Of a DNA stretch of 64,000 nucleotides, positions 20,376 through 23,759 are shown piece by piece; the first letter of the stretch is position 1; the number at the start of each line of letters is the position of its first letter. The position numbers and the translations under genes are program-made. Under the pieces are notes generated by a model. The model searched no databases and was not told the origin of the DNA. It worked only from the letters and a program-made list of their open reading frames with translations. This stretch comes from Polycyclovorans algicola TG408 (GTDB lineage Bacteria; Pseudomonadota; Gammaproteobacteria; Nevskiales; Nevskiaceae). The DNA lies in assembly GCF_000711245.1 (NCBI RefSeq), contig NZ_JOMH01000001.1, positions 248,001-312,000 of the forward strand, written 5' to 3'.

Positions 20376-20834
20376 TTACTCAGCCATCTTCTCAGCAACT
20401 TTTTCGTTGACCTCGGGATCACTCTGGTAGGCCACGAAAATTTCCTGATAACGCTGGATGGTCAGGCCCGATTCTTCGATCGCCGAGTGCATGCTGCGCT
20501 CGGTCTCTTCACGCATAGCAGCCGCCTGAGTCTCGTCGCCGGCCTCAGAAAGCTTCTTCTGAGCATCTTCGTGCAACACCTGGATCTCGTTGGCGGCAGA
20601 GATGAACTGATCGATCTCGTCATCGGACACCGGCGTCGCCGGCGCTTGCTGCTGCTGCTGCGGCGGCTGCTGTTGCTGCGGCTGCTGCTGCTGCGGCTGC
20701 TGTTGCTGCTGCTGCGGCGCCGCTTGGGCCACGGTCATTTCAGCATCGGCGGCGGCAAGCGCGGCGCCACTGGAAAAGACCATCCCCAAAGCGACTGCGC
20801 CCGGGGTAAGAAGGTTCTGGATCGGGAAACGCAT
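20376..20834 (-). CDS. Secreted DUF4168 protein with polyglutamine linker
   Basis: 152 residues. A signal peptide (about 1-28, ending AALAAA) is followed by a striking Gln/Pro tract (about residues 39-65) and then a DUF4168 domain (EIDQFISAANEIQVLHEDAQKKLSEAG... to YQEIFVAYQSDPEVNEKVAEKM). Members are exported proteins of unknown role. The linker probably acts as a flexible spacer. The gene is alone, oriented away from the DUF3299 operon's end by 80 bp. Confidence 0.83.
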   Translation of the reverse strand: MRFPIQNLLTPGAVALGMVFSSGAALAAADAEMTVAQAAPQQQQQQPQQQQPQQQQPPQQQQQAPATPVSDDEIDQFISAANEIQVLHEDAQKKLSEAGDETQAAAMREETERSMHSAIEESGLTIQRYQEIFVAYQSDPEVNEKVAEKMAE

Positions 20835-20914: not shown

Positions 20915-21832
20915 TTAATTTTGCTCAACCGGACTTTTTTCACGGTTGCGCGCTTCGCGCAGCGCAAAGAGGATGCCCCGTTCACTGCGCTTGACCAGTT
21001 CAAGACGGCCCTCGATGACCAGCGGATCGAAGCTGGCAGTGACCGGATGCTGGTCGGCAAACACTTCGACCACTGTTGCCGGTCCGCCCGGCACATGGAA
21101 GAAGCACGCCGGTGGGCTGGCTGAAAGCAAAAAATGCCCCTGTTCGGCGGTCATCTCCAGCGGCAACATAAACCCGGCCAGCCGAACCACGGTGCCGTCG
21201 AGCCGAGAAATGTCGTCGGGAAACTCGGCGACCATCTGGTCATCGTCATCCAGGGTCACCCGGGTTTTCATCATCGCGTTCCACGGCAGCAGCCCCTCGC
21301 GCGAAACCCCTTGCAACCACTGGTCGAAATCGTTGGGAATCACGTTGATGCGGAATTCGCGCCGAACGCCCGCAGCGCTGACGGTCACCGGAAAGGTGCC
21401 GGCATCCCCAACGATGATCTGAAATTCCATGTAGCCATCGGCATCAGTCTCGGGCTGTGCGGCGATGACCTGCGGCGGCGGCGAAAGCTCGTTGCCGAGG
21501 GGCGAAAAAGTGACGGTTTCATCCGCCAGCGGCGTGCCCGCCTCTGTGCCGAGGATGACGCCCATCCACAGTCGGTCACCTTCGTAGGCATCGACGGTGA
21601 GCACGCCATCGCGCAGCTCGCCGCCCTCGGACTGGATTTCGAGCACGGGCAGTTGTCCCGCGCTGGCAGCGTCGCTGATCTGCAATGTGCTTGCCTTGTG
21701 TTGGGCCGCCTCGGCCGGGACCGACGTTGCGGCGGGCCGCGTTTCGGGCGCTGCGTCAGCGTCGCGCTGGCAACCGGCAAGCGCAAAAGAGAGCCCTGCG
21801 ACCCACGTCGTGACGCGCCAAAATTTGTTCAT
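20915..21832 (-). CDS. DUF3299 lipoprotein of an ABC transporter operon
   Basis: 305 residues. The signal ends at a lipobox (FALAGC, Cys 21). A central beta-sandwich-like region (about 60-160) precedes a DUF3299 domain, recognisable by RLDGTVVRLAGFMLPLEMTA and CFFHVPGGPATVVEVF near the C-terminus. It is the last gene of a three-cistron set; its start overlaps the permease stop by 4 bp. DUF3299 proteins recur with this class of ABC ATPase and permease and have been linked to zinc-related systems in other Gammaproteobacteria; the exact function is unknown. Confidence 0.8.
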   Translation of the reverse strand: MNKFWRVTTWVAGLSFALAGCQRDADAAPETRPAATSVPAEAAQHKASTLQISDAASAGQLPVLEIQSEGGELRDGVLTVDAYEGDRLWMGVILGTEAGTPLADETVTFSPLGNELSPPPQVIAAQPETDADGYMEFQIIVGDAGTFPVTVSAAGVRREFRINVIPNDFDQWLQGVSREGLLPWNAMMKTRVTLDDDDQMVAEFPDDISRLDGTVVRLAGFMLPLEMTAEQGHFLLSASPPACFFHVPGGPATVVEVFADQHPVTASFDPLVIEGRLELVKRSERGILFALREARNREKSPVEQN

Positions 21833-23091
21833 GCGCGCGACAATACACCGGCCACATCGACGCGGTAGGCCCGCAGCGCCGGCAGCACCACGGCGGCGGT
21901 CGCCACCAGAATCGCCAAGGCAAACACCCAGACTTCACCCGGCACCCAGGCTAGGCCGGTCATCGGTTGTCCGGGCAGGTGACGGCCCAGCGCCTCGCCC
22001 AGACCGCGCGCCAGCGCCGCCCCCAAAAGCGCGCCGGCCAGCGCCAGTAACAGTGCCTCGGCCCACAGCAAACGGACGACGCGCCAGCGGGTGGCGCCCA
22101 GTGCGCGCATCACCGCCAAATCGTACTGGCGCGACTCCAGCGCGCTGTTGAGCGCCGCCAACATGCTCAGCGCGGCCAGCACCACCAGTGCGGCGGCGAA
22201 GGCTTGGGCCGCAGCAATCGCGCTTTTGGCCAGCACCCTGAGTCGCAGCAGCTCCTGCGCGGGCGTGACGGCCATCAGCCCCGGCACTTGCGCCACCTCG
22301 CGCGGCAGCGTGGCGGCACCCAAGGGCGAGCGGTAGCGAAGGAGAATGGCGGTGATGTCTCGATCAACCTGCGCGACAGCGATGCCTGCCTCGCGCGCCT
22401 CGTCGCGCTCGTGCTCGTGCTCGTGCTCGTGCTCGTCGTGATGATCGGCTTCATCGGCGGGCACGGCGTCTTGGGCGTGCTCCCCGTGAAGCTGCCAGAC
22501 GCTCTCCAGCGAGGTGATGATCAATCGGTCCAGCACCGTGCCGGTGGCGGCCAGTTGCCCGACCACCCGATAGGGCTGCTGGTCGTGGACATCGCCGCTG
22601 TCGGCCAGCCCATGGGTGCCCATCAGGCGGCTACCGGTGGCCAGGCCGGTCGCAGCCACGTCGGCACCGATGACCGCGTCCATGGTCCGCACCGGCCATT
22701 GGCCATCCGCCAGTTGCGCGTCATAAAGCGCAAAAAAATCAGCGGTGGTGCCGACGATGCGGAAGCCCATCGCACTGTCACCCAGGGCAATGGGCACGGC
22801 CATCGCCACCAGCCGGTGTGCGGCCCAGCGCGCCGCTGCGTCATGGGGGATGTTTCCGGTCGGGTTGTCGACGTGATAAATCGCCGACAGTGCAAGTTGC
22901 AGCGGCGAGCCAGGCGCCCCAATGACCATGTCGACCGCCGCCGCATCGCGCGCGGCGCGCTGTTGCAATTGATGACTGACCAACATCATCAACACGATCA
23001 GGCCGGTGGCAAACGCCATCAGCGCGAGGTGCAGCAGGTGCGGCAGCGGCCGGTGGCGAATGGCGGCCCAGATCAGCCCCGGCGTGGTCAT
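21829..23091 (-). CDS. MacB-like ABC transporter permease with histidine-rich loop
   Basis: 420 residues. One N-terminal membrane helix, a large periplasmic domain (about 45-280) and three C-terminal helices (from about 295, LAALSMLAALNSALESRQYDLAVMRALGATRWRVVRL) give the FtsX/MacB topology. Between residues 217 and 228 lies a cluster of alternating His/Glu (HHDEHEHEHEHE), a potential metal-binding loop that faces the periplasm. It overlaps its ATPase gene upstream and the DUF3299 gene downstream by 4 bp each. Substrate unknown; a zinc-linked role is inferred. Confidence 0.85.
   Translation of the reverse strand: MTTPGLIWAAIRHRPLPHLLHLALMAFATGLIVLMMLVSHQLQQRAARDAAAVDMVIGAPGSPLQLALSAIYHVDNPTGNIPHDAAARWAAHRLVAMAVPIALGDSAMGFRIVGTTADFFALYDAQLADGQWPVRTMDAVIGADVAATGLATGSRLMGTHGLADSGDVHDQQPYRVVGQLAATGTVLDRLIITSLESVWQLHGEHAQDAVPADEADHHDEHEHEHEHERDEAREAGIAVAQVDRDITAILLRYRSPLGAATLPREVAQVPGLMAVTPAQELLRLRVLAKSAIAAAQAFAAALVVLAALSMLAALNSALESRQYDLAVMRALGATRWRVVRLLWAEALLLALAGALLGAALARGLGEALGRHLPGQPMTGLAWVPGEVWVFALAILVATAAVVLPALRAYRVDVAGVLSRA
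22407..22436 (-). repeat. In-frame hexanucleotide microsatellite (GCTCGT)x5
   Basis: Five perfect copies of GCTCGT on the plus strand encode the His-Glu repeat in the permease loop. Because the unit is six bases, copy-number change would lengthen or shorten the His/Glu tract without a frameshift. Confidence 0.9.
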
Positions 23092-23720
23092 GCGGCCAGC
23101 ACCCAGTGTTCGTCAAGCCGAAGCCGGGCGCGGGCATCGTGGGTGGCGACCAGCAGCGCCGCACCCTCGCGGGCGGTCTCGGCGAGCAGCAGGTCCATGA
23201 CCCCCGCGGCGTTGTCGTCGTCGAGGTTGGCGGTGGGCTCGTCGGCCAACACCAGTGTGGGGCGGTTGACCAACGCCCGGGCGATGGCCGCGCGTTGTTG
23301 CTGGCCGCCCGACAGCGCATGCGGCCGCGCCTCGGCAAGCGCCGCCAGCCCCAACTGGTCCAGCAGCGAGCGCACCCGCGGACGATCCACCGGCAGCCCG
23401 GCACAGCGTTGGGCAAGCAGCAGGTTATCGGCAAGGCTGAGCGCGCCGAGCAGGTGCAACCGTTGAAACACGATGCCGATGCGTCGGCCGCGAAAAGCAT
23501 CGCGGCGCGCCTCTGGCCAGTCACTGATGGGCTGGCCGTCGATCGTGACCTGCCCGCCCGAAGGCCGCTGCAAGCCGGCAATCAGGTGCAGCAGTGACGA
23601 CTTGCCGCTGCCGGAAGGGCCGGTCACCACCGCCTGCGCCCCGGTCGCCAATTGGCGGTCGGCGTAGTGCAACGGGGGGCGCCCGGGGTGGGCCAGCGTC
23701 AGGGATTCGAGCGTCAGCAT
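23088..23720 (-). CDS. ABC transporter ATP-binding protein (LolD/MacB-like)
   Basis: 210 residues. Walker A GPSGSGKSSLL (about 35-45), Q-loop in GIVFQRLHLLG, signature motif ALSGGQQQRAAIARAL and Walker B LVLADEPTANLD are all intact, so it should hydrolyse ATP. It is the first gene of the ATPase-permease-DUF3299 operon and overlaps the permease by 4 bp. A palindrome resembling a Zur box lies 27 bp upstream of its ATG. Confidence 0.9.
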   Translation of the reverse strand: MLTLESLTLAHPGRPPLHYADRQLATGAQAVVTGPSGSGKSSLLHLIAGLQRPSGGQVTIDGQPISDWPEARRDAFRGRRIGIVFQRLHLLGALSLADNLLLAQRCAGLPVDRPRVRSLLDQLGLAALAEARPHALSGGQQQRAAIARALVNRPTLVLADEPTANLDDDNAAGVMDLLLAETAREGAALLVATHDARARLRLDEHWVLAA

Positions 23721-23746: not shown

Positions 23747-23759
23747 GTTACAAGGTAAC
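23747..23759 (-). promoter_or_regulatory. Zur-box-like palindrome ahead of the ABC/DUF3299 operon
   Basis: GTTAC-AAG-GTAAC is a perfect 5-3-5 palindrome located 27-39 bp before the ATPase start. The core of known Gammaproteobacterial Zur sites has the same geometry, GTTAT-N3-ATAAC. Zinc repression of the operon is inferred from this and from the His-rich loop. Confidence 0.5.

Follow-up and report, generated by a model that had tools for sequence, protein, structure and literature searches.

A predicted Zur operator ahead of a MacB-type ABC-DUF3299 operon in Polycyclovorans algicola TG408

Main finding

The perfect palindrome GTTACAAGGTAAC at positions 23747-23759 of the window (the whole 64,000-nucleotide stretch of Polycyclovorans algicola TG408 DNA that was analysed) is in all likelihood a Zur operator, as predicted from its sequence and setting, and stands ahead of an operon encoding an ABC ATPase, a MacB-like permease and a DUF3299 protein. 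A function of this operon in zinc starvation is considered very likely, and comparable confidence is placed in the explanation as a whole, namely a zinc-repressed promoter with a Zur operator, serving a periplasmic zinc machine. The direction of transport is evenly poised between import and export. Control by zinc and Zur had been put forward in the original prediction, and the context of the site, its conservation, the neighbourhood of zur and the presence of a Zur homologue in the genome all lend it support.

The candidate operator and the ABC-DUF3299 operon

The features of the region are as follows.

23747..23759, no strand assigned: predicted Zur operator GTTACAAGGTAAC, GTTACCTTGTAAC in operon orientation; perfect palindrome, conserved in sister species and recurrent in the order
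23088..23720, minus strand: ABC transporter ATPase (FtsE/LolD/MacB-type), first gene of the operon; PF00005, 9.1e-32
21829..23091, minus strand: MacB/FtsX-type permease, overlapping the ATPase gene by 4 bp; PF02687, 1.7e-11, and PF12704 (MacB_PCD), 1.5e-8
22411..22488, minus strand: permease residues 202-227, the His-rich loop, which follows the MacB-like domain match and precedes the C-terminal FtsX match
20915..21832, minus strand: putative lipoprotein with an Ig-like (Big_1-like) and a DUF3299 domain, overlapping the permease gene by 4 bp; PF11736, 34.7 bits (cut-off 22)
20376..20834, minus strand: DUF4168 gene with a long Gln/Pro-rich stretch, 80 bp downstream of the operon; PF13767, 4.8e-14

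The box, read on the plus strand, is a perfect 5-3-5 inverted repeat inside the 74 bp that separate the minE stop (23795) from the start of the ATPase gene (23720, minus strand), 26 bp from the ATG, which bears out the claim of a palindrome directly before the ABC-DUF3299 operon. The claim of Zur-box geometry also held, the palindrome matching, with equal geometry, RNNNYxxxRNNNY, the element for one E. coli Zur dimer (PMC4219657). It further fits the core GTTAY-N3-RTAAC, as does GTTATATTATAAC, the 13-bp core of the site predicted for Zur at the zrg operon of Vibrio parahaemolyticus (PMC9817125). A match at the box to the 18-bp two-dimer motif of PMC4219657 was weighed by eye and set aside; the match is lost in one sister species (G002). 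A consensus scan ahead of the operon found no sigma-70-like promoter.

The frequency of the motif was rejected as evidence for the box, since the count is close to that expected from composition and not above the reversed control. The window holds one perfect GTTAYNNNRTAAC site versus 0.02 expected (2 of 100 shuffles contain one), and with two mismatches allowed its 20 sites versus 15.7 expected are no excess. Across the 3.65-Mb genome, the strict form GTTACNNNGTAAC has two sites versus one for the reversed control, and the degenerate form with at most one mismatch is rarer than its control (47 versus 133); composition alone predicts about 1.2 strict sites and 0.6 to 2.9 perfect degenerate sites, according to the model used. 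Searches of this genome and six relatives gave no genome-wide count above chance or the reversed control. Because the count is not decisive, weight was placed on position and conservation instead.

The three genes of the operon run on the minus strand from 23720 down to 20915 with 4-bp overlaps. The His-rich loop named in the original prediction is present in the permease as HGEHAQDAVPADEADHHDEHEHEHEH (residues 202-227), a stretch rich in His, Asp and Glu. The DUF3299 protein has an N-terminus that reads as a lipoprotein signal, with the lipobox LAGC followed by Gln at +2, the residue to which the lipoprotein sorting rule applies. Its Ig-like domain scores 23.5 bits with Big_1, under the cut-off of 34.9. 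Among the 25 aligned homologues, all gathered by the DUF3299 domain, Pfam DUF3299 matches 25 and Big_1 matches 11, and C243 and H246 (PPxCxFH) are invariant. The AlphaFold model of the protein (pLDDT 82) places the DUF3299 structure of PA4066 (4hsp) at rank 14, after Ig-fold and other beta-rich matches. No terminator-like site was found in the interval between the operon and the DUF4168 gene; of the loci searched by tblastn, just those of the two sister species have this gene next to the operon.

Conservation of the box

The 13-mer is identical in both sister species (G001 and G002), while its flanks drift. G001 has exactly two perfect sites genome-wide, ahead of the ZIP-like gene (described below) and the ABC-DUF3299 operon; G002 has three, ahead of these two and of a ZnuD-like gene, with a small open reading frame intervening in the last case. 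A small reading frame in this position, possibly for a secreted protein, was seen between a perfect box and a ZnuD-like receptor both in G002 (L172, 1415-1828) and in G014 (L160, 1467-1850).

In the family and order, a perfect box lies within 200 bp upstream of the ATPase gene in 8 of 22 loci, and a box with at most one mismatch in 12 of 22, against means of 0.003 and 0.17, respectively, for dinucleotide shuffles and 0 for the reversed pattern; other 200-bp windows of the same loci contain such boxes at 7/700 (perfect) and 10/700 (at most one mismatch). This count leaves out L084 and L089, where no ATPase was found, and L106, where the ATPase start is cut off, and represents G002, whose operon is split over two contigs, by L168. 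Of the other ten loci, three have a two-mismatch form within this distance, four a perfect box farther upstream and three neither; in two of these last three (L085 and L094), zur adjoins the operon. Beyond the order, such a box is missing from most loci of the operon's transporter branch. A review of Pseudomonas notes that Zur control of PA4063 is seemingly absent in some groups (PMC10393844).

The candidate regulator

Two Fur-family proteins are encoded in the genome, and by sequence similarity one of them, at C1:2927757, is clearly a Zur. Its best PDB matches are 7dh7 (117 bits), labelled a Fur-family regulator in the match table and taken by us to be Xanthomonas Zur, and E. coli Zur 4mtd (102 bits), with the CxxC pairs aligned; chains named ferric uptake regulators reach at most 47 bits. 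The NCBIfam Zur model ranks first for this protein at 130 bits, under the cut-off of 167.

In 15 of 22 loci (14 of 21 inside the order), zur and the genes of the operon are 83-2026 bp apart; this count covers zur alone, and its set of loci differs slightly from that of the box count in including L106 and leaving out L168. The zur gene is found within 360 bp of the ATPase-permease-DUF3299 operon in L085, L086, L090, L091, L093, L094, L099, L104 and L106, and in L086 and L099 a perfect box stands between divergent zur and ATPase genes. Among 58 genomes of the family, a Zur match is present in 13 of the 14 with DUF3299 versus 9 of the 44 others (Fisher p 1.8e-6, the genomes being related and thus not independent).

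Two other readings of the palindrome were weighed against these data. It could be a 13-mer that arose by chance, or some unrelated structural element between minE and the operon; the genome-wide motif frequency, close to composition, is in keeping with the former, and a hairpin-like repeat readable by eye in the same gap with the latter. However, the 13-mer is unchanged in both sister species amid drifting flanks, the box is enriched at the same operon position across the order, and the four perfect sites of the genome all precede zinc-uptake-like operons, all of which argues against this reading, which is judged highly improbable. It could instead be that a different regulator with similar geometry, such as Fur or a dimer from outside the Fur family, occupies the box and that the operon answers another signal. 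The second Fur-family protein of the genome would be a candidate, and the sequence does not by itself name the binder, but the recurrence of zur beside the operon (zur alone counted), the tracking of operon presence by Zur presence, and the fit of the sites to the Zur dimer element (PMC4219657) and the zrg site (PMC9817125) make another regulator very improbable. A Zur operator is the preferred reading of the palindrome.

Perfect sites in the genome and the putative Zur regulon

A genome scan for the box had also been suggested, and all four perfect sites of the degenerate form GTTAYNNNRTAAC in the 3.65-Mb genome proved to be intergenic and directly ahead of three plausible zinc-uptake operons. 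These are the ABC-DUF3299 operon, a ZnuD-like TonB receptor with tandem boxes, and a ZIP-like carrier; the distance to the start codon is 22-38 bp, that of the ZIP-like site being 25 or 55 bp depending on the start chosen. The sites with one mismatch are distributed differently, 8 of 43 being intergenic and 35 inside genes as placed by a rough gene caller; compared with 4/4 for the perfect sites, this gives a hypergeometric p of about 0.003, calculated by hand and with the tandem pair not independent. The eight intergenic one-mismatch sites were rejected as further members of the regulon, as they do not convincingly precede zinc genes; one of them lies ahead of what we take to be a peroxiredoxin-like gene. 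The znuABC genes, proposed as a control for the scan, were unusable as a target because no ZnuB-type permease was found: PF00950 has no match in this genome, and 13 of 14 control genomes are positive.

The tandem pair (C1:649577-649605; L004, 1485-1513) has 3 bp between its perfect boxes and stands 22 bp ahead of the receptor gene, which is preceded by genes that presumably encode a cytochrome bd oxidase. The top NCBIfam model for the receptor is ZnuD (1.8e-94, 318 bits, under the model cut-off of 950). The box of the ZIP-like gene is at C1:2836616-2836628, and the gene itself (L010, 1569-2237) encodes a small membrane protein without a match in Pfam, NCBIfam or PDB sequence searches. The nine top Foldseek matches to its AlphaFold model (pLDDT 86) are ZIP structures, yet they are weak (E 0.02-0.7, TM 0.32-0.45); its motifs HALADG and HSLPIG resemble those of ZIP proteins. 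Relatives of this protein in the family reach about 600 aa. A perfect box precedes the ZIP-like gene in all three genomes of the genus that were searched. In the wider family, 30 loci were examined, from 36 genomes with a match among 100 searched, and perfect boxes were confined to the three genus genomes, with one additional one-mismatch site (L143); family-wide Zur control of the ZIP-like gene is thus not supported. A predicted three-operon Zur regulon, composed of the ZnuD-like receptor, the ZIP-like carrier and the MacB-type machine, is plausible for this genome. As a side observation, three relatives have weak ABC-3-type permease matches (G058:C1:515221, G061:C133:8935-9630 and G094:C20:76941-77642) at no more than about 9 kb from DUF3299 genes, which may mark a second zinc transporter in that neighbourhood.

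Comparison with known zinc systems

The original prediction described an ABC/lipoprotein system of unknown substrate; the ABC transporter with its putative lipoprotein stands, whereas the system is not wholly unknown in kind, because Zrg and PA4063-PA4066 are distant relatives. Both ZrgABCDE and PA4063-PA4066 are reported to be Zur-controlled (PMC9817125, PMC11481552, PMC9820375, PMC4542158), and the zrg operon of V. parahaemolyticus is described as rising 76-206-fold in expression when zinc is deficient and as being under negative control by Zur (PMC9817125). The Vibrio system comprises an ATPase (zrgC), a permease (zrgB), a DUF3299 protein (zrgE), a DUF2796 protein (zrgA) and zrgD. The window operon resembles it in joining a separate ABC ATPase and a MacB-like permease to an adjoining DUF3299 gene in one operon, but differs in having no ZrgA and in carrying a His-rich loop in the permease. 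Its DUF3299 protein is also larger: it has 305 aa, including an Ig-like domain and a putative lipoprotein signal, compared with 150 aa for V. cholerae ZrgE after signal cleavage (PMC9820375). The P. aeruginosa PA4063-PA4066 system likewise combines an ATPase, a MacB-type permease and a DUF3299 protein (PA4066, structure 4hsp), but has the ZrgA-type zinc protein PA4063, which the window operon lacks. ZnuABC is the Zur-regulated zinc ABC system described for other proteobacteria, but its permease belongs to another family. MacB and LolCDE share an FtsX/MacB-type permease and a related ATPase with the window operon; however, the sequence similarity is weak (27 bits for MacB), and the window operon has a DUF3299 partner. 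A scan of six genes found no MacA-like adaptor.

A tree of 21 permeases of the window's branch and 16 Zrg-type permeases separates the two into distinct groups with 100/100 support on a long branch, the tree being unrooted, and places the window permease outside the Zrg group. PF10986, the family of the zinc-binding protein ZrgA, matched neither the own genome nor any family or order genome searched; its matches, in 14 of 194 genomes, are all in more distant members of the class. A ZrgA profile likewise had no match in the 100 loci of the window's permease branch. The operon would work like Zrg, but it has neither ZrgA nor a permease of the Zrg group, and it is best filed as a separate, ZrgA-less relative, distantly related to Zrg and PA4063-PA4066. 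In the open-licence literature, Zur and DUF3299 were found together only in the V. parahaemolyticus paper (PMC9817125), and searches there that paired Zur with Nevskiaceae, or with MacB and histidine-rich proteins, returned nothing on this branch in titles and abstract openings.

At least six His in a 30-residue stretch occur in 46 of 99 permeases of the window's branch (16 of 22 in the nearest set) and in none of 27 ZrgA-type permeases. The His counts cover loci with a detected permease, which 14 loci lacked, and the count of 99 also leaves out the truncated L084; the branch counts drop L176, L186 and L208, which duplicate L094, L106 and L091. The presence of ZrgA in 27/27 of the ZrgA-type loci is by construction, because these loci were fetched around ZrgA matches. 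The complementarity of His-rich loop and ZrgA was rejected as proof of function: the two sets are two groups in the tree, and the contrast may therefore be a single event. The His-rich loop of ZrgA itself is reported to be dispensable in V. cholerae (PMC9820375), which weakens the idea of the permease loop as a functional stand-in for ZrgA, and we entertain this idea tentatively, as somewhat doubtful. The window-type permease branch comprises at least 591 confirmed stretches, Bacteroidetes included. It is common in Bacteroidetes (Pedobacter, Algoriphagus) among L176-L255; no DUF3299 match was seen at the Pedobacter loci, and hardly any Bacteroidetes locus has this type of box.

A model for the operon and alternative transport functions

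It is proposed that, when zinc is plentiful, a zinc-loaded dimer of the Zur encoded elsewhere in the genome would bind GTTACCTTGTAAC upstream of the ATPase gene and block transcription, and that zinc starvation would release Zur, leading to expression of the operon together with the ZnuD-like outer-membrane receptor and the ZIP-like inner-membrane carrier, which have the same box. The product would be a MacB-type ABC complex, with separate ATPase and permease, and a putative Ig-DUF3299 lipoprotein; the complex may handle periplasmic zinc or a metal-bound ligand during starvation. In this model, zinc would be gathered by the His-rich loop, standing in for the absent ZrgA, and would then be passed on through ATP-driven motion of the periplasmic domain. 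No ZnuB-type permease was found, but ZIP-like and ZnuD-like proteins lie under the same box, and a role in periplasmic zinc handling, feeding or complementing the ZIP-like carrier and ZnuD-like receptor, is therefore favoured.

Two further readings accept Zur control and differ on what is moved. The transporter may export a metallophore or a metal-metallophore complex, as modelled for PA4063-PA4066, with an indirect part in the zinc economy. The MacB-type architecture would suit such a function, and mutant data from P. aeruginosa support export of a pyochelin-cobalt complex (PMC11481552), whereas the genetics of V. cholerae zrg support zinc import (PMC9820375) and the His-rich loop suggests periplasmic handling of metal; export is regarded as a real but minority possibility. 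The complex could, on the other hand, be a direct inner-membrane ABC importer of zinc that works without a separate binding protein. A genome with a Zur regulon, yet without a match to a ZnuB-type permease or ZrgA, would have use for one, and the loop in the permease is consistent with it, but the ZIP-like carrier under the same box could itself be the importer. MacB-type permeases are also not known to have an inner-membrane substrate path, and direct import is considered unlikely. Periplasmic zinc handling under Zur control remains the reading that we favour.

Biological significance

A wider proposal is that this lineage has a zinc-starvation economy without a ZnuB-type importer or ZrgA. 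It would rest on a separate MacB-type branch of Proteobacteria and Bacteroidetes, with a zinc-gathering His-rich element in the permease and, in this order, an Ig-bearing DUF3299 lipoprotein, acting as a periplasmic zinc mover free of a binding protein and placed under Zur control with ZnuD and a divergent small ZIP carrier. In this full form the proposal is speculative and, on balance, rather unlikely.

With the predicted operator, a formerly unnamed ABC-DUF3299 operon becomes a testable zinc-starvation system, part of what would be a compact Zur regulon of three operons in a genome where no ZnuB permease was detected. The Vibrio and Pseudomonas papers give different answers as to whether Zrg-type machines import or export, and if the permease takes over the task of ZrgA with its His-rich loop, this branch would help to settle both how such machines use zinc and in which direction they transport.
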